From assembly GCA_024399195.1 (NCBI GenBank), contig JAKSHW010000004.1, positions 1 through 35,883 of the forward strand: DNA of 35,883 nt, in the 5' to 3' direction. Shown piece after piece: positions 3,743 to 35,883 of this stretch (the stretch's first letter is position 1; every line of letters starts with the position of its first letter). The position numbers were made by a program, and so were the translations under genes. Source of the DNA: an archaeon (GTDB taxonomy: Archaea > Thermoplasmatota > Thermoplasmata > Methanomassiliicoccales > Methanomethylophilaceae). Under the pieces are notes generated by a model that was not told the DNA's origin, made no database searches, and was given only the letters and a program-made list of their open reading frames with translations.

Positions 3743-4737
3743 TGTCGAACAAAACCGTGCTGCTGCTTCCCGGAGACGGTCCCGGGAACGCGGCGATAAA
3801 ACACGTCTCCAAGACGATCAACGCCGTCGCCCCCGATGTCGAGGTGGTGTTCGGGGACATAGGGTTCTCCGCCTACTCCGTCAGGGGCGAGGCCCTTCCC
3901 GAAAGGACCTCCGACCTAATCGCGTCCTGCGACGGTGTCCTCTGCGGACACATCGAGGCCGAGAAGCTCGACCAACGCAACCCGTTGGACGACATCAGCA
4001 TCCAGTTCGGGCTCAGGACGAGGATCAGGGAATACTTCACCCTCCCCAACACCGGGGTCGGGAAGAACATGGACATGCTCCTCATCGGTTCCAACCCCGA
4101 CCACCTGGACGGTTCCGTCGAAAACGAGGAGCTGAGCGGCATCACCGCCACCTCCAACCTCAACGAGGAGAACATCAAGGACGTGGTCACGGACGCTGTC
4201 TTCCAGTCGGGTATGTTCGGACGTGACCGCATCTCGTTCATATCGGGATACGACGACCTTCCCGTGATGGACGAGTACGTCAGAAAGACCGTGTCCCCCA
4301 TGTTCGAAGGATGCGACATCGGCCATGAGATGCTGGGGAAGGAAGAGGCCATGTACAGGCTCGTCACCGATCCGGGATCGGTCAGATGCGCCGTATGCGG
4401 CCACGATTCCTTCAGCTATATCGAAGGTTTCGCGAAAGGGATGTGCGGCGGGTCCGGGCTCATGGCCGAGGCCATCGTCGGAAGCAAGCACAGCATCGTC
4501 ATGCCTTCGTACAGCGATGACGAGAACAGACTCAACAACCCCACCGCGGCCATGCTCTCCGCAGGTCTCCTCCTGATGGAGATCGGGGAGAGAAGGGGAT
4601 ACGAGATCATACGCGAGATCGTATCCGTCATGTACCGCGAGAAATGGTCCACCTCCGACGTCGGAGGATGCCTTACCCCCTCCCAGTTCTGGGAAGGGTC
4701 CACCAAACTCATCGAAGCGTACAACAGGTACGCCTGA
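3742..4737 (+). CDS. Divergent isocitrate/isopropylmalate dehydrogenase-family protein
   Basis: A 331-residue protein with the outline of the beta-decarboxylating dehydrogenase family. It has an N-terminal LLPGDGPGNAAI stretch like the family's GDGIGPE loop, and a C-terminal NNPTAAMLSAGLLLMEIG segment like the family's NP-A-ILSAAMML. Key parts are altered. The metal-binding region (family N-FGDILSD) reads HDSFSYIEGFAKGMCGG, losing both aspartates. The NAD(P)-binding HGSAPDIAGK loop is replaced by VMPSYSDDENRL. It may therefore have a different reaction or a non-catalytic role. It overlaps dys by one base and precedes a CoM methyltransferase-like gene by 31 bp. True leuB or icd is unlikely; substrate unknown. 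Confidence 0.7.
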   Translation: MSNKTVLLLPGDGPGNAAIKHVSKTINAVAPDVEVVFGDIGFSAYSVRGEALPERTSDLIASCDGVLCGHIEAEKLDQRNPLDDISIQFGLRTRIREYFTLPNTGVGKNMDMLLIGSNPDHLDGSVENEELSGITATSNLNEENIKDVVTDAVFQSGMFGRDRISFISGYDDLPVMDEYVRKTVSPMFEGCDIGHEMLGKEEAMYRLVTDPGSVRCAVCGHDSFSYIEGFAKGMCGGSGLMAEAIVGSKHSIVMPSYSDDENRLNNPTAAMLSAGLLLMEIGERRGYEIIREIVSVMYREKWSTSDVGGCLTPSQFWEGSTKLIEAYNRYA

Positions 4738-10858: not shown

Positions 10859-11160
10859 GTCAATAGAGAGAGGACAGCCGACGGTAGGACTCCGGTCCAG
10901 CTGAGGAAGTTCCCTCCTCCAAGGGTAAGATGAGCTAGGAAATCTAGCAAGGCGAGAGCTTTGGCAAGGGCCCAGAAACGACACAGTCCCGGTAGACAGG
11001 ATGAACGGTATGTCCGCGACGTTCCCGGGGATCTGGTGAAACGGCGACACCTCATCGGAGCAAGCTCATACAGTCGGGATGATCGACCCGAGACCGACGG
11101 GTAGAGTGCGTTAGTTGAATGCTGTCTGAAACAGAAGGGGGGCTACTACTCTGAATTGAC
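10859..11160 (+). ncRNA. rnpB: RNase P RNA (archaeal type)
   Basis: About 302 nt. The conserved 5' core GAGGAAGTTCCCTCC (near 10902-10916) and the 3' core ACAGAAGGGGGGCTAC (near 11131-11146) identify the RNA subunit of RNase P, the ribozyme that trims tRNA 5' leaders. The ends pair as helix P1: GTCAAT-AGAG at the start with CTCTGAATTGAC at the end. It has its own TATA box and hairpin terminator. The end coordinates come from the P1 pairing and could shift by a few bases. Confidence 0.92.
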
Positions 11161-29853: not shown

Positions 29854-30279
29854 TTAAGCACTCCTGTAATCATGAAGCGATGGTCTATACTTGGAATATC
29901 TGCCTACGTCAATGGTGTATCCGAAGGGGATGGTCTTGTCGCAAGCGGCTTTCAGCTCCTCTACAACTGCATTGAGCCCATCTTCGTCCTCTACGAGGAC
30001 CTCGATGTAGAATGCACCGACCAGACAATGAAGTTCGACCTCGCGTCCTGCGACGTGAATGATCTTACGTTCAGTGTGGTTGTTCATGTGTCCCTTTGCG
30101 GGACCGCTGTTGATCTTTGCGGGAAGGGATTCTCCCTGCATGTTGACCTGCCTGATGTGCTTGATACCCTCGATGGCGTTCAGAACGACTTCGGTGGTCT
30201 CGGCACTGAGCAACCTGTTGGTCATAATGCGGATTTCCGGAAGGGGAACGTTCGCATATTCTGCAGTAGGGGCGTACAT
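29854..30279 (-). CDS. mcrD: Methyl-coenzyme M reductase operon protein D
   Basis: A 141-residue accessory protein that associates with MCR and is thought to act as a chaperone in assembly or F430 loading. Signatures are PLPEIRIMTNRLLSAETTE (about 13-31), QVNMQGESLPAKINSGPAKG and a C-terminal ferredoxin-like half ending IPFGYTIDVGRYSKYRPSLHDY. It is 18 bp downstream of mcrB and 2 bp upstream of mcrG. Confidence 0.95.
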   Translation of the reverse strand: MYAPTAEYANVPLPEIRIMTNRLLSAETTEVVLNAIEGIKHIRQVNMQGESLPAKINSGPAKGHMNNHTERKIIHVAGREVELHCLVGAFYIEVLVEDEDGLNAVVEELKAACDKTIPFGYTIDVGRYSKYRPSLHDYRSA

Positions 30280-30297
30280 GTATAGACCTCTAACTCC

Positions 30298-31626
30298 TCA
30301 GACCTTAGTCTTGATCTTCTTAGCCTCAGCTCCGACGAACTGCATAGGCGTGTTGAACTCGGGCATTCCTCCGAAGACCTCTTTGAAGAGTCCGGAAGTG
30401 GCTTCTGCAGAGAAGAACTGGGTTCCACCGTCAAGGCAGTTTCCTGCGGTTACAGCGGGGATAAGGGTTCCTTTAGCATGCCTGGTAACGACGTGGTTTC
30501 CGTGGAACAGTCCAGGTCCTCCACCACCGTAGATGGAGTGGGAGAAGAAGGACATACCGACACCGACACCCTCCGCACGTCCGTAGTCGACTCCGGGGAG
30601 TCCAGACTCGTGCTCGAGAAGGTCGTTGTAGTAAAGAACAGTGGAGGGAACTCCCTGTGCTGCCCTTGCTGCACCGACGTTTACCATAACTGCGGCAACC
30701 TCTCCGGCTGCTGCGTATGCGTTCCAGAGGGGAAGGTCATCGGTGGTGTACACCTTGTATCCGGAGGGGAGAACCTCTTTGACACGGATGACTTTGTCCT
30801 CGATGGCGTGGGCCATAAGGGACTCGATAACAGTACCGACAGTACCGGTCTTACCGTTCTCTTTGACGAGAGTGTAGACGAGGTTGTTGGCGTTAAGTCC
30901 CTGGAATGCGAGGGACAGAAGGTGCTGTCTCTCGAAGGGTCCGACTGCATCTCCCATCTCGAATGCTGCACAGGTCTCGAAGATGGAGGAGAGTGCGGCA
31001 CCCTGCATTGCGTTCCTCTTGACGAGTGCAACGACGTGGTTGGACATGATGTTCCTAAGTGCAAATCCTGCTCCTTCGTTCATCTGGGGAACCTCAAGAA
31101 TGGTCTTGATGTTGGATCCGACGAAGTTGATGGTCTGGGGGTATTTACCCCATACAGCGGCTTTCACCATGTTGGCTTTGTACATGGGGATGTTGTAGAG
31201 GTCGATGATGGCCTCGGTGGTTGCAGCGGCGACGGCGGTGAATCCAGTGGTGTACTCGACTCCGGCGTCGGTCCTGGCCTCAGGAACGATAACGACAATG
31301 CTCTTGCCCTCGTTCATGATGGTGACGACGGTGTCGTCGTCCTCGGTAACCTGGACCATTTCTTTGATTTTTGCTGCAACTTTCTCTGCGTCAGCGACGA
31401 GAGGGACCTCGATCTCTTTACCCTGGATGATGCTTCCAGCGATTGCTCCGGTAGCCAGAGCTTTCTGGATGCCTGCAAGGCTAACTGCGATGGTCCTCTT
31501 GGTCAGAGAGGCAATTTTCTGGATTGCCTTGTTGCGCAAGGGACTGATGGCTTCGAGAGGCACATCTTTAGCGATGCGCTTTCCGTTGTCATCATACAGG
31601 TCTATTACGTCCTCGTATTTTGGCAT
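30298..31626 (-). CDS. mcrB: Methyl-coenzyme M reductase beta subunit
   Basis: A 442-residue subunit of the MCR hexamer. It starts MPKYEDVIDLYDDNGKRI, contains MSNHVVALVKRNAMQGAALSSIFE and, near 365-385, FFSHSIYGGGGPGLFHGNHVVTRH. That segment carries the conserved active-site tyrosine that faces the methyl-CoM pocket. A strong GGAGGT lies 8 nt before the ATG. It leads the operon mcrB-mcrD-mcrG-mcrA-DUF2098. Confidence 0.98.
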   Translation of the reverse strand: MPKYEDVIDLYDDNGKRIAKDVPLEAISPLRNKAIQKIASLTKRTIAVSLAGIQKALATGAIAGSIIQGKEIEVPLVADAEKVAAKIKEMVQVTEDDDTVVTIMNEGKSIVVIVPEARTDAGVEYTTGFTAVAAATTEAIIDLYNIPMYKANMVKAAVWGKYPQTINFVGSNIKTILEVPQMNEGAGFALRNIMSNHVVALVKRNAMQGAALSSIFETCAAFEMGDAVGPFERQHLLSLAFQGLNANNLVYTLVKENGKTGTVGTVIESLMAHAIEDKVIRVKEVLPSGYKVYTTDDLPLWNAYAAAGEVAAVMVNVGAARAAQGVPSTVLYYNDLLEHESGLPGVDYGRAEGVGVGMSFFSHSIYGGGGPGLFHGNHVVTRHAKGTLIPAVTAGNCLDGGTQFFSAEATSGLFKEVFGGMPEFNTPMQFVGAEAKKIKTKV

Positions 31627-31653
31627 ATTATACCTCCTTGTTCGATTCTAACA

Positions 31654-31675
31654 CGCGGAAAAAACAACTTCCGCG
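31654..31675 (-). promoter_or_regulatory. Hairpin in the mcr operon leader
   Basis: CGCGGAA and TTCCGCG arms with an 8-nt loop form a perfect 7-bp stem on the minus-strand transcript, about 20 nt upstream of the mcrB ribosome binding site. It may steady this highly expressed message or regulate translation. Confidence 0.5.
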
Positions 31676-31709
31676 CTCCTCTTGCAAGCCTCGTGAATGG
31701 TAATGCGCA

Positions 31710-31718
31710 ATATAAACC
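31710..31718 (-). promoter_or_regulatory. TATA box of the mcr operon
   Basis: GTTTATATT on the minus strand lies about 85-90 nt upstream of mcrB, predicting a start near 31685 and a leader of roughly 60 nt that contains the hairpin. A second TATA-like GTATATATAGG at 31823-31833 further upstream is an alternative promoter. Confidence 0.5.
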
Positions 31719-31902
31719 CATTGGGGAAAAGGCACAATCGGGACGAATAATCCTGATTTTTAACGGCGTTTGATTCCGATGGAAGATGCATCCATTCGAA
31801 AATTGTGATTCCGAATCGCCCTCCTATATATACCTTGTTTTTTTCGGAAGGTTTTTCCATAGGAGGACGACGGAATCAGGGGAATTGGGATTTTTCGGAG
31901 GA

Positions 31903-32616
31903 TCAGTCCCTTTTCGCCTTGGTCATGACCCCTTCGGAGTATCTGTCCAAGTGGGATACGTACTCCGGGATCCTGGCGTAGGGGATACCGATTGCCATCT
32001 CGTCGGCCTTCATATCGGTCTTCTTGCGGCATCCGAAGCATCCGATGGAGATGTTGGGTTTACCGGTGCATACGGGAACCGCACCGACATCCTCGCAGCA
32101 ACACTGGAAGGGAGATGTGGAGAACTGTACCCTTCCGCCTTCTGCAGCGGTCTCAAGGGGGACGATCCAATACACTTTTTCGGGGATGTCGACGATGTCC
32201 ACTATGTCGGGGACGAAATCGGCGTCCTTGAGGGGGCAGACGACCTCTCCGACCACTTTGAAGGGGACGATCATCCTCTCGGCTACCATCTTGGCGGCGG
32301 ATTCGGCAGAATCGTGCATTCCGACGCCTGCGTGGAACTGTCCGGTGGTGACCTTCTCGGGGGTCTCCATCATACCGAGGGCGGATGCACCGACATGGCA
32401 TGCCTGGTCCTCGAGGGAAAGGTACATGGAACTGCCGTTCTTGGCCGCGAACACCGCCTGACAGTGGCTGAGCTGTTTCTCGGGCCTGTTGTAACCTGCG
32501 GGGACCTCCTCCCCTTCCTTCAGGAGTTTGACGGCTACGGGTTCGTATCTGAGACCGATGACGGTCTTGATCTTGTCCGCGAACATGCGGTTGTCTTCCA
32601 ATACTTTGGAAACCAT
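31903..32616 (-). CDS. DUF169-family protein
   Basis: A 237-residue soluble protein of the DUF169 family, frequent in methanogens and other anaerobes but without known function. Signatures are YEPVAVKLLKEGEEVP (about 23-38), LSHCQAVFAAKNGSSMYLSLEDQACHVGASALGM (about 49-82) and the C-terminal IGCFGCRKKTDMKADEMAIGIP (about 190-211). It is cysteine-rich (CCCEDVG and CFGC), which hints at a metal or redox site. It is a single gene with a TATA-like element (AAATCATATATTAC) just upstream, on the same strand as mcr. Confidence 0.85.
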   Translation of the reverse strand: MVSKVLEDNRMFADKIKTVIGLRYEPVAVKLLKEGEEVPAGYNRPEKQLSHCQAVFAAKNGSSMYLSLEDQACHVGASALGMMETPEKVTTGQFHAGVGMHDSAESAAKMVAERMIVPFKVVGEVVCPLKDADFVPDIVDIVDIPEKVYWIVPLETAAEGGRVQFSTSPFQCCCEDVGAVPVCTGKPNISIGCFGCRKKTDMKADEMAIGIPYARIPEYVSHLDRYSEGVMTKAKRD

Positions 32617-32704
32617 GTCTGTTAATCTGTAATATATGATTTAAAACCGACCTTAACGATAGGTAAGGCCGTCAGGAGCCCTCTGGAAACGGTCTCCGAT
32701 AACG

Positions 32705-32713
32705 TTATTATTA
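32705..32713 (+). promoter_or_regulatory. TATA box of argF
   Basis: TTATTATTA lies 20-28 nt upstream of the argF ATG, the spacing of a leaderless transcript. Confidence 0.45.
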
Positions 32714-32732
32714 CATCTACCATGTTGCAACC

Positions 32733-33650
32733 ATGGGAAAAAGAAATCTGATATCAGTCCTTGATATGAAGGACGAGTGGCCCGCCCTTGTGGACCTCGC
32801 CATCAAACTCAAAGCAGAACGCGGTCACCACAACGACCCCCTCAAAGGCAAGACCCTCGCCATGATGTTCGAAAAACCCAGCACCAGGACCAGGACCTCT
32901 TTCGATATCGCCATCACCGAGCTCGGAGGACACGCCCTCTACCTCGATGTCACCAAGATGCAGATGGGCCACGGTGAGACCGTAGAGGATACCGCAAGGG
33001 TCCTCAGCCGCTTCGTACACGGTGTCATGTACCGTGCTTTCGACTACAAGATGATGGACAAGCTCGGAGAGTACACCACCGTCCCCGTCATCAGCGGTCT
33101 CGACGACCTCGAGCATCCCTGCCAGGCCCTCGCCGACATGGTCACCATCAAAGAGAAGTTCGACACCTTCAAGGGAAGGAAGCTCGTATACCTCGGAGAC
33201 GGAAACAACGTCTGCAACTCCCTTCTCTACGCATGCGCCATCATGGGTATCGACATGATCGCCTGCTGCCCTGCCACCAGGATGCCCAACGCGGAGATCA
33301 TGCTCGCGGCGGCCAAGATCGCAGAGGAGAACGGAAGCAAGATCATCGCATCCCACGACCCCAAAGAGGCGTGCGTCGGAGCCGACGTCCTCTACACCGA
33401 CACCTGGATCTCCATGGGAGACAACACCCCCGAGGAGCAGGCCATCAAGCTCTTCCAGGCGTACCAGATCAACGACGACCTCCTCTCCATCGCGAGCCCC
33501 GACTGCATCGTCATGCACTGCCTCCCCGCCCACAGGGAACAGGAGATCACCAACTCCGTCATCGAGGGCCCCCACAGCGTCGTCTTCGACCAGGCCGAGA
33601 ACAGGCTCCACGCACAGAAAGCGGTGCTTTACACCCTTCTCAAAGACTAA
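32733..33650 (+). CDS. argF: Ornithine carbamoyltransferase
   Basis: A 305-residue cytosolic enzyme that makes citrulline from ornithine and carbamoyl phosphate in arginine synthesis. Carbamoyl-phosphate motif STRTRTSFD (about 50-58), HPCQALADM (about 129-137), ornithine-binding SMGDNTPEEQ in place of SMG, and catalytic HCLPAHR (about 261-267). The SMG motif and lack of the aspartate-binding pattern favour ornithine over aspartate transcarbamylase. It is a single gene; its 3' end overlaps the convergent RecJ-like gene by 11 bp. Confidence 0.95.
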   Translation: MGKRNLISVLDMKDEWPALVDLAIKLKAERGHHNDPLKGKTLAMMFEKPSTRTRTSFDIAITELGGHALYLDVTKMQMGHGETVEDTARVLSRFVHGVMYRAFDYKMMDKLGEYTTVPVISGLDDLEHPCQALADMVTIKEKFDTFKGRKLVYLGDGNNVCNSLLYACAIMGIDMIACCPATRMPNAEIMLAAAKIAEENGSKIIASHDPKEACVGADVLYTDTWISMGDNTPEEQAIKLFQAYQINDDLLSIASPDCIVMHCLPAHREQEITNSVIEGPHSVVFDQAENRLHAQKAVLYTLLKD

Positions 33651-35061
33651 GCCCCGCAAGGGCCTCGTCCAAAACACGGAGGAACTCCTCCGTACTTCCT
33701 TCCGGGATGGTCGCCCCGGCCGCCACCGTGTGACCGCCGCCCATCCCACCTACCTTTTCAGAGACCTCCGCCATGAGGACGGACAGGTTCAGACCTTTGT
33801 CCACCATCTCTTTCGTAGCCCTTGCGGAGACCTTTATCCCGTCGTCCGCCTCCGCGAACGCTATCATCGGCTTATCGTGGTCGGCGTCCTCGGAGGCCAG
33901 AAGCATACCCGCCACGATACCGACCACCGTGTCCTTTATCTCCGAACCCGCATCGAAGAACTGCAGGTGCCCGCGTTTCTGGAGAAGTCCCTTGTCCTTG
34001 ATGTATTTCAGGGACACGGATATGTTCTTGCTGTGGGCCTTGCGGTTCTTCTCCGCCTCCTTCAACGCGGAGACGTCCCCAAGGCATATACGTGCCCCGA
34101 CGGGGGCGTTGTCGTAACGTCCGCAGGAGTTCAGGACCGTGGCGAACTCCTTCCCGTCCCTCAGTCCCGAATCCACAGGATAACGGAGGATGCTGTACAT
34201 CTCGCCGATGAGCGTACCGTGCTTCTCGGGAGGGACCGCCTCCATTATCGCGTCCATAAGGACCGCCTTCTCGCATTCGTCGAGGTCGGCCCAGGGGCGG
34301 TCCTTCCCCGATGGGCCCTTGTACGGTATCCCGAAACACGAAAGGAGGGACAGGCATGCCTGACGGTTCCCCGACACCCCCGGGATCGAGGGTTCGTCCG
34401 CGTACTGTAAATATTGTATTATAGAGCGGGAACACCTTCCGAAATAGCGGAGGTCCCAATCGATGGACACGTCGCCTTCCGATATTGCGTCCTGCAGGAT
34501 GATGCGGTTGTAGCTCACCAGCTTCGATTCCCTCGTGTCCTGGAAATCCCCCAGGGCACCTATGACGGCAAGATGGGCGAGGTCCCTGTTGGCGGGGTCC
34601 ACAGTTTTGGACAGAAGATAGGTCATCCCCGCACCGCACACCTCGAACGAACCTGATACCCCATACAGATGCGGATTAAGATGGTGGGGACTGCCCAGGT
34701 ACATATCGAGAAGGGTCTGACCGGAAGGTCTACGGACATCGGGTTCGTGATGGTCCGTGACTATGAGGCTTGTACGGGTGAAACTCGACATATATGCACT
34801 GCCGAGGTCGCATATCCACACGAGGTCGTACGGACTTTTGTTGACCCTGTCGATCACCTCGTCCGTGATCTTCTTCTCGAACGCGATCTCGTACCTCTTC
34901 CCGAGCCTTTTCAAGGTCTCGGATGCGATCGCGCCCGACGTTATCCCGTCCGCATCGATGTGTGTGACGACATAGACGGAATCCGCCTTTCTCAACGCAT
35001 CGGCCGCACATCTGCAGTCTTTCACAAGCTTCGGAGACAGTTCGTCGGGATATCCGTCCAT
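33640..35061 (-). CDS. RecJ-like DHH-family phosphoesterase
   Basis: A 473-residue protein of the archaeal RecJ/DHH family, metal-dependent nucleases or phosphoesterases; some archaeal members work with the GINS replication complex. Catalytic motifs: THIDADG (33-39), CDLGS (84-88) and DHH (103-105), with the DHHA1 motif GGMGGGHTVAAGATI near the C-terminus. ATG at 35061 is preferred over a TTG one codon earlier. A TATA-like ATATAT at 35084-35089 fits a leaderless transcript and lies just 3 bp from the 3' end of a group II intron. Confidence 0.88.
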   Translation of the reverse strand: MDGYPDELSPKLVKDCRCAADALRKADSVYVVTHIDADGITSGAIASETLKRLGKRYEIAFEKKITDEVIDRVNKSPYDLVWICDLGSAYMSSFTRTSLIVTDHHEPDVRRPSGQTLLDMYLGSPHHLNPHLYGVSGSFEVCGAGMTYLLSKTVDPANRDLAHLAVIGALGDFQDTRESKLVSYNRIILQDAISEGDVSIDWDLRYFGRCSRSIIQYLQYADEPSIPGVSGNRQACLSLLSCFGIPYKGPSGKDRPWADLDECEKAVLMDAIMEAVPPEKHGTLIGEMYSILRYPVDSGLRDGKEFATVLNSCGRYDNAPVGARICLGDVSALKEAEKNRKAHSKNISVSLKYIKDKGLLQKRGHLQFFDAGSEIKDTVVGIVAGMLLASEDADHDKPMIAFAEADDGIKVSARATKEMVDKGLNLSVLMAEVSEKVGGMGGGHTVAAGATIPEGSTEEFLRVLDEALAGLSL

Positions 35062-35083
35062 CAACGGCGGGTTATGGTTCGGT

Positions 35084-35090: not shown

Positions 35091-35133
35091 GAGTCTAATA
35101 AGAGGAAGGGATTACTCCCTCCCCCTCTTCTAG

Positions 35134-35167
35134 GAACCGTACGTGATAGTTTCCCATCATACGGCTC
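35134..35167 (-). ncRNA. Group II intron domain V
   Basis: The 34-nt catalytic hairpin: GAGCCGTATG... with GAAA tetraloop-like cap and ...CACGTACGGTTC, pairing GAGCCGTA with TACGGTTC. It is the most conserved part of group II introns and carries the metal-binding triad region. Domain VI follows directly. Confidence 0.92.
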
Positions 35168-35204
35168 GAGCCATCGATAACCATGTCCTTCATGGCGGTC
35201 CGGC

Positions 35205-35845
35205 TCAACTTGTGAAACTCCTGTCCCTGTATCCACGTTCGTATCTGTGCCGAGCTCTGCGCTCGGCATAATATCCGATATTGATGTAGGGGTTGGTGTT
35301 TGACCTCACCTTCACATGGCGTCTTATCCTGACGTCACACGGTCTTAGAAGACGGTTGTTCTCCGTGGAGAAATCGAACCTCTTGTCTTTGGTCCTGTGC
35401 CAATACCTGTCGAAGACCCAGTGCTTGGACTTGTTCCTGTGTCTGCGCAGTCCCCATCTGTACAAGGTGTCGAACAGATACGAATCGAGGTAATCGAAGG
35501 TCCTCGATGCCACCGATGAACGGTGGTAGTTGCACCAACCGCGTATCTTCGGATTGAGTATCTGTATCAACTGGTCCTGTGTCAGGGCCTTGCCCTGACC
35601 GAGTATGGCCGTATTCAAGGATTCCTTGATGGCTTCCAACGATCCCTTGGAAGGTTTTATCAGCATTTTGAGCTTCTTCTGAACCTCGTATTTCCTGAAA
35701 TTCCATCCGAGGAAATCGAATCCTTCACGGATATGGGTGACCTTGGTCTTTTCGGACGACAGTTCCAGACCACGTTCCGAGAGGAACGTGGATATGACCG
35801 ACCTGGCCTTTTCAGCATGGTCCTCGGTTCTGCAGATGACCACGA
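35205..35845 (-). CDS. Group II intron reverse transcriptase/maturase, interrupted 3' part
   Basis: About 213 residues of an intron-encoded protein. It begins right after the YADD catalytic motif: with the first codon completed by the missing exon it would read (F)VVICRTEDHAEKA, the usual sequence after YADD. RT motif 7 is GFDFLGWNFRK (about 41-51). The thumb follows. The maturase X domain has ILNPKIRGWCNYHR (about 95-108) and RRHRNKSKHWV. The C-terminus contains RIRRHVKV and NPY but no HNH endonuclease zinc ligands. The upstream part is separated by another intron (from 35846). An in-frame stop inside that intron prevents read-through unless it is spliced out. Confidence 0.85.
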
Positions 35846-35883
35846 GTCGAATAAGAGGAAGGGATTACTCCCTCCCCCTCTTC
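35846..35883 (-). mobile_element. Group II intron B, 3' terminus (partial)
   Basis: The last 38 bases of a second group II intron, domain VI and 3' end, cut by the window edge. Over 35844-35883 it matches 35091-35130 of intron A at 39 of 40 bases. It ends ...GAC, and the following TC GTG GTC ATC restores the reading frame of the reverse transcriptase of intron A. Its domain V and body must lie beyond the window. Confidence 0.8.

Follow-up and report, generated by a model that had tools for sequence, protein, structure and literature searches.

Does the window, the 35,883-nt stretch of DNA from a gut-type methanogenic archaeon analysed here, end inside one group II intron that is itself lodged in the reverse transcriptase (RT) gene of another? 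An initial annotation had proposed this, placing an inner intron (B) in the catalytic YADD region of the RT of an outer intron (A), within one codon and with the frame restored. Since the contig ends 38 nt inside B, nesting is not provable from the window alone. The genome is assembled in 322 contigs, among them the window (C257), and these were searched for RT domains. The nested-intron reading proved right: it is supported by contig C312 of the same genome, on which every element was complete.

On re-reading, the coordinates and letters previously given for the intron ends in the window were correct (Table 1). The domain VI and 3' end read at the edge of the contig were confirmed by the fold, a hairpin with a single bulged A 7 nt from the GAC 3' end (z -4.2). 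Over 38 nt each, this tail and that of outer intron A in the window differed by one base, and it was 100% identical to positions 7668-7705 of C312. The RT frame said to follow domain VI was indeed present: the open reading frame begins VVICRTEDHAEKA directly after TC, and it matched GIIM (PF08388, E 2.1e-22) as well as RVT_1, the latter over profile positions 157-205 only. The closing domains V and VI, ending at 35093, were likewise recovered by an RF00029 match on the minus strand (35169-35093; 52 bits, E 1.4e-7) and by the joint fold of both domains (z -5.6). A RecJ-family gene begins 28 nt past the 3' end of intron A, and the end of an ornithine carbamoyltransferase gene overlaps it by 11 nt. 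The latter gene belongs to a stretch (29854-33650) that also holds mcrD, mcrB and a 237-aa gene (31903-32616) for which no match was found among NCBIfam profiles. Elsewhere in the window are an archaeal RNase P RNA (10862-11157) and a tRNA gene (534-607). Together with a deltaN-type pyrrolysyl-tRNA synthetase in the genome, mcrB and mcrD point to Methanomassiliicoccales and hence to an order different from that of Methanosarcina, which supports the earlier suggestion. This synthetase was most like PDB entries 6jp2/6ezd, presumably from Methanomethylophilus.

Table 1. Features of the nested introns and their flank in the window and on contig C312
Feature	Contig	Position	Strand	Evidence or remark
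55-nt stretch identical to C312 7668-7722	Window	35829-35883	-	Sequence comparison
3' tail of inner intron B, with domain VI, the branch-point A and the GAC 3' splice site	Window	35846-35883	-	Fold; truncated by contig end
TC, second and third bases of the Phe codon interrupted by B	Window	35844-35845	-	Fused codon TTC, with the far-side T of C312
3' part of outer RT/maturase: RT motifs past YADD, then GIIM maturase domain, stop codon included	Window	35205-35843	-	Pfam domains; dN/dS versus C312
Domain V of outer intron A	Window	35134-35169	-	RF00029
Domain VI and 3' end of outer intron A	Window	35093-35133	-	RF00029 and fold
Archaeal RecJ-family nuclease gene (downstream flank, outside the element)	Window	33640-35064	-	NF053576, E 8.7e-147
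Outer intron; starts GTGCGAC, ends TTATTCGAC	C312	4182-8457		RF02012 and RF00029
Inner intron B	C312	5574-7705		RF02012 and RF00029

On C312, the RT domains were encountered in the order RT 1-157, complete RT, RT 156-205. RF02012 5' domains were located at 4237 and 5621, RF00029 3' ends were matched twice, one per intron, and both introns possessed the GTGCGAC 5' end and domain I, the corresponding part of the window being off the contig. The outer RT is cut inside a Phe codon, with GCC GAT GAC T upstream of B and TC GTG GTC ATC TGC downstream, and the joined flanks read FADDFVVICRAE (the fused outer RT is also given as LVRFADDFVVICRAE / RFADDFVVICRAE). A full inner intron was thus found within a full outer intron whose reading frame is restored upon its removal, as in a twintron. 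What had been predicted beyond position 35883, namely domain V and the body of B followed by an RT 5' half plus one base, was present on C312, the contig of the window itself ending at that point. The single T expected on the far side was there, so that TC does complete a Phe codon (TTC). Of the restored motif 5 announced as YADD-FVVICRT, the frame and the Phe were recovered, but the motif of C312 is FADDF and not YADDF. The inner RT and the fused outer RT both contained RVT_N, RVT_1 and GIIM, and the inner one matched TIGR04416 (338 bits); a Pfam search of the RT of B found no endonuclease domain. Its closest solved relative was 6me0 (E 7e-140), which we take to be TeI4h. The putative guide of B, EBS1 AGTCGT at position 292, pairs at 6/6 positions, including one G-U, with the target IBS1 ATGACT, a pairing of only 6 nt on C312.

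These elements compose, with high confidence, a group II twintron in which intron B would be a mobile retroelement homing into the RT genes of related introns, where it splits the Phe codon into T and TC. In the proposed course of events, EBS1 in domain I of B would pair with the ATGACT bases just 5' of the junction in the YADD-F codons; B would splice, and its RNP would reverse-splice into the YADD-F codons of the RT gene of another intron, a DNA copy of the inserted B being made by its own RT. Outer intron A would then carry B in its domain IV loop, and B would have to splice out before A could yield a working RT. Because the frame is exactly restored, A can retain a functional RT provided that B splices.

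The status of the copy in the window depends on why its contig breaks. Read on the minus strand, its first 55 nt are those of C312 and base 56 differs; an exact shared word of this length where a contig ends resembles a branching point of the assembly graph at k=55. Through this word, the RT of C312 and that of the window are each connected to the tail of B, as would be the case if another, almost identical B resided in a different outer intron. Neither the 5' half of the outer RT of the window nor the body of this other B was found in the assembly of the same genome, and nesting at this locus is therefore deduced from the 3' side. A Lokiarchaeal genome contained a complete nest (L044) and a second nest on two contigs (C138 and C105), which end 107 and 102 nt inside the inner intron; these ends are identical to those of L044 (107/107 and 102/102) while the outer introns have diverged. 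Nests of this kind would be hidden by short-read assemblies, which break at the repeated inner intron. In the RT tree, the outer RTs of the window and C312 were sisters (100/98), beside uninterrupted relatives of the same family (L020 and L116) in which the empty site reads FADDF with TTC. Between the 3' halves of the outer RTs of the window and C312, dN was 0.20 and dS 1.36, indicating that the outer RT protein is under purifying selection.

Two other histories could account for the pair. The B sequence of the window might be a leftover tail fragment or a misjoin with C312 instead of part of a complete nested intron, given that the contig contains only 38 nt of B and that they match C312 perfectly, as do the adjoining 17 nt of exon. 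This we regard as very improbable: the identity extends over exactly 55 nt and stops at the first difference, as where a k=55 graph branches at a genuine repeat, the two loci differ in their outer introns and 3' flanks, and the Lokiarchaeal genome displays the same pattern of broken contigs beside a complete nest. Alternatively, the twintron may have moved or been copied as a unit, A carrying B, as could be suspected from the identical junction in both nests and from the relatedness of the two outer RTs (68% aa identity). Such joint copying seems unlikely, since the visible end of B is identical at 55/55 positions, 17 nt of exon included, whereas the outer RTs are at a dS of about 1.36. The identical inner ends of the Lokiarchaeal pair within diverged outer introns argue in the same direction, and a like pattern in Thermosynechococcus elongatus has been interpreted as independent insertions (PMC2882425). 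We infer that B homed separately into two A introns. Two further group II sequences were noted: an orphan intron tail (L017:3252-3298, G000:C27), 89% identical to the domain VI end of B, with neither domain V nor RT alongside and likely a remnant, and a decayed intron (L018:528-1239, G000:C38) with a domain V/VI match of 58.8 bits and broken maturase frames.

The distribution of the junction was analysed by scanning 84,980 GTDB species for the pattern TWYGCNGAYGAYTGTGYGAC, which returned 33 loci, including four nests (L044, L053, L048 and L058). Candidate L032 was rejected because its RT is intact, and the other non-nest loci look like chance frames, as were all four matches of the same pattern in IMG/VR. 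Within the order of the window, the junction was restricted to its own genome (1 of 147), and a nucleotide search of relatives yielded no second nest. The same junction was found in Lokiarchaeota (L044, complete) and in Nitrospirota (L048, whose EBS1 has one mismatch to its target, and L058). Among Halobacteriota, 11 of 394 genomes carried the pattern, 10 of them in an RT context, the reversed-pattern control giving none; G101 was dismissed as a chance frame. Locus L021, which resembled a further inner intron, was discarded on account of a 5' flank that is not RT sequence. What is new is the presence of same-class introns at the YADD-F site in a Methanomassiliicoccales-like methanogen, Lokiarchaeota and Nitrospirota. 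Such nests occur widely among archaea and extend to at least one phylum of bacteria.

Several loci had peculiarities of their own. In Nitrospirota nest L058 (4583-5535), the 5' half of the outer RT carries a frameshift immediately ahead of the insertion site, due to an error or to decay. In L214 (G280:C41), the RT halves on either side of the inner intron (5' half VVRYADD, 3' half FIVTAESEETA) seem to belong to different RT families, which would suit recombination between nests via the inner intron that they share. An uninterrupted Lokiarchaeal RT (L161:3989-5425, G102:C269), in a genome that has a YADD-homing intron, reads YADDC (TGT for TTT/TTC) and is possibly a resistant site. Methanosarcina-type nests were observed elsewhere in the RT, in motif 3 (CF-D codons; L147:1082-5342, G348:C2) and in motif 4 (PQGGI; L146:1446-5720, G337:C15).

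The catalytic motif of the RT is among the most conserved codon strings in group II introns, and hence offers other introns an almost universal place to insert. An EBS1 of AGTCGT(T) was nearly identical in nearly all same-site inner introns, across four phyla and two intron classes. This near-identity would suit a single lineage spread by horizontal transfer, without any convergence, yet such a history appears unlikely in view of the RT tree: the inner RTs each clustered with other introns from their respective host groups, and a single clade of same-site inner RTs was rejected (p-AU 6e-68 without L044; 1.4e-8 with L044, a long branch whose placement is less sure and which makes a weaker case). 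Moreover, the Halobacteriota intron belongs to another class (RF01999), and similar EBS1 sequences are expected anyway when set by pairing with a conserved codon string. In our estimation, chances are even that separate lineages (Methanomassiliicoccales, Lokiarchaeota, Nitrospirota and, with the other class, Halobacteriota) independently evolved the same EBS1 for YADD-F and each recoded its own junction. This nest and its relatives suggest repeated exploitation of the catalytic motif, with exact frame restoration.

Recoding was considered from the residue that follows ADD, which gave FADDL in B, YADDY, YADDG and YADDG in other inner RTs and YADDS in M. acetivorans, against ADDF in 33 of the 36 RTs of non-targeting relatives in the set. 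Phe was absent from all four inner RTs versus 3/36 others (Fisher 4e-4, or 2e-3 counted as three lineages). Its loss may represent self-immunity through recoding, among few and partly related cases, and FADDL in B would then protect it from self-insertion. Recoding abolishes the pair at position -1 in most motif-5 cases; the IBS1 of L044 itself continues to pair, the change being limited to the +1 base. Ordinary drift without self-immunity is a serious competitor, to which we grant slightly less than an even chance: L021, L108 and L068 lack Phe although they do not target the site, the L044 change is confined to the +1 base, and a non-Phe residue may be the norm of class RF01999. Against drift stand the skewed counts and two inner introns aimed at other motifs, which are altered there and not at YADDF (ACYD for CFD in G348; PQGS for PQGG, motif 4, in M. 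acetivorans). Owing to the three Phe-less relatives and to L044, self-immunity was dropped as a strict rule and is stated as a hypothesis, though it held in the nests checked. It makes a testable prediction, namely that an intron has to alter, within its own gene, whichever motif it targets; if true, self-immunity among retroelements that parasitise other retroelements would follow a predictable rule.

Dai and Zimmerly (2003, RNA 9:14-19) reportedly described group II introns nested within one another in Methanosarcina acetivorans, and the parallel drawn with these in the initial annotation holds closely. In G489, which we take to be M. acetivorans C2A, introns interrupt at least three RT genes at the same phosphodiester, after YADD + T and before TY, so that the YADD-F junction is a known kind of target. 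As with B, the introns in question lie within RT genes of related introns (nesting in RT genes of this species is described in PMC1712230 and in a 2015 review, PMC4424553). However, they start with GTGCGCC, end with CTCACC, have an EBS1 of AGTCGTT and are of class RF01999 (D1D4-2), whereas B belongs to the CL-like RF02012 class, as does its host intron, and terminates in TTATTCGAC. The TeI3/TeI4 twintrons of T. elongatus resemble the present case in having identical inner introns (here, the visible ends) in diverged outer introns, but their inner intron is devoid of ORF and lies between the first two ATGs, while B occupies the catalytic motif (PMC2882425). In the mat1f twintrons of the Porphyridium plastid, as here, one inner intron is found in two different outer introns at the same domain IV site; their outer RT is a remnant, in contrast to the outer RT described here, whose frame is exactly restored by the predicted splicing of B (PMC4476101).
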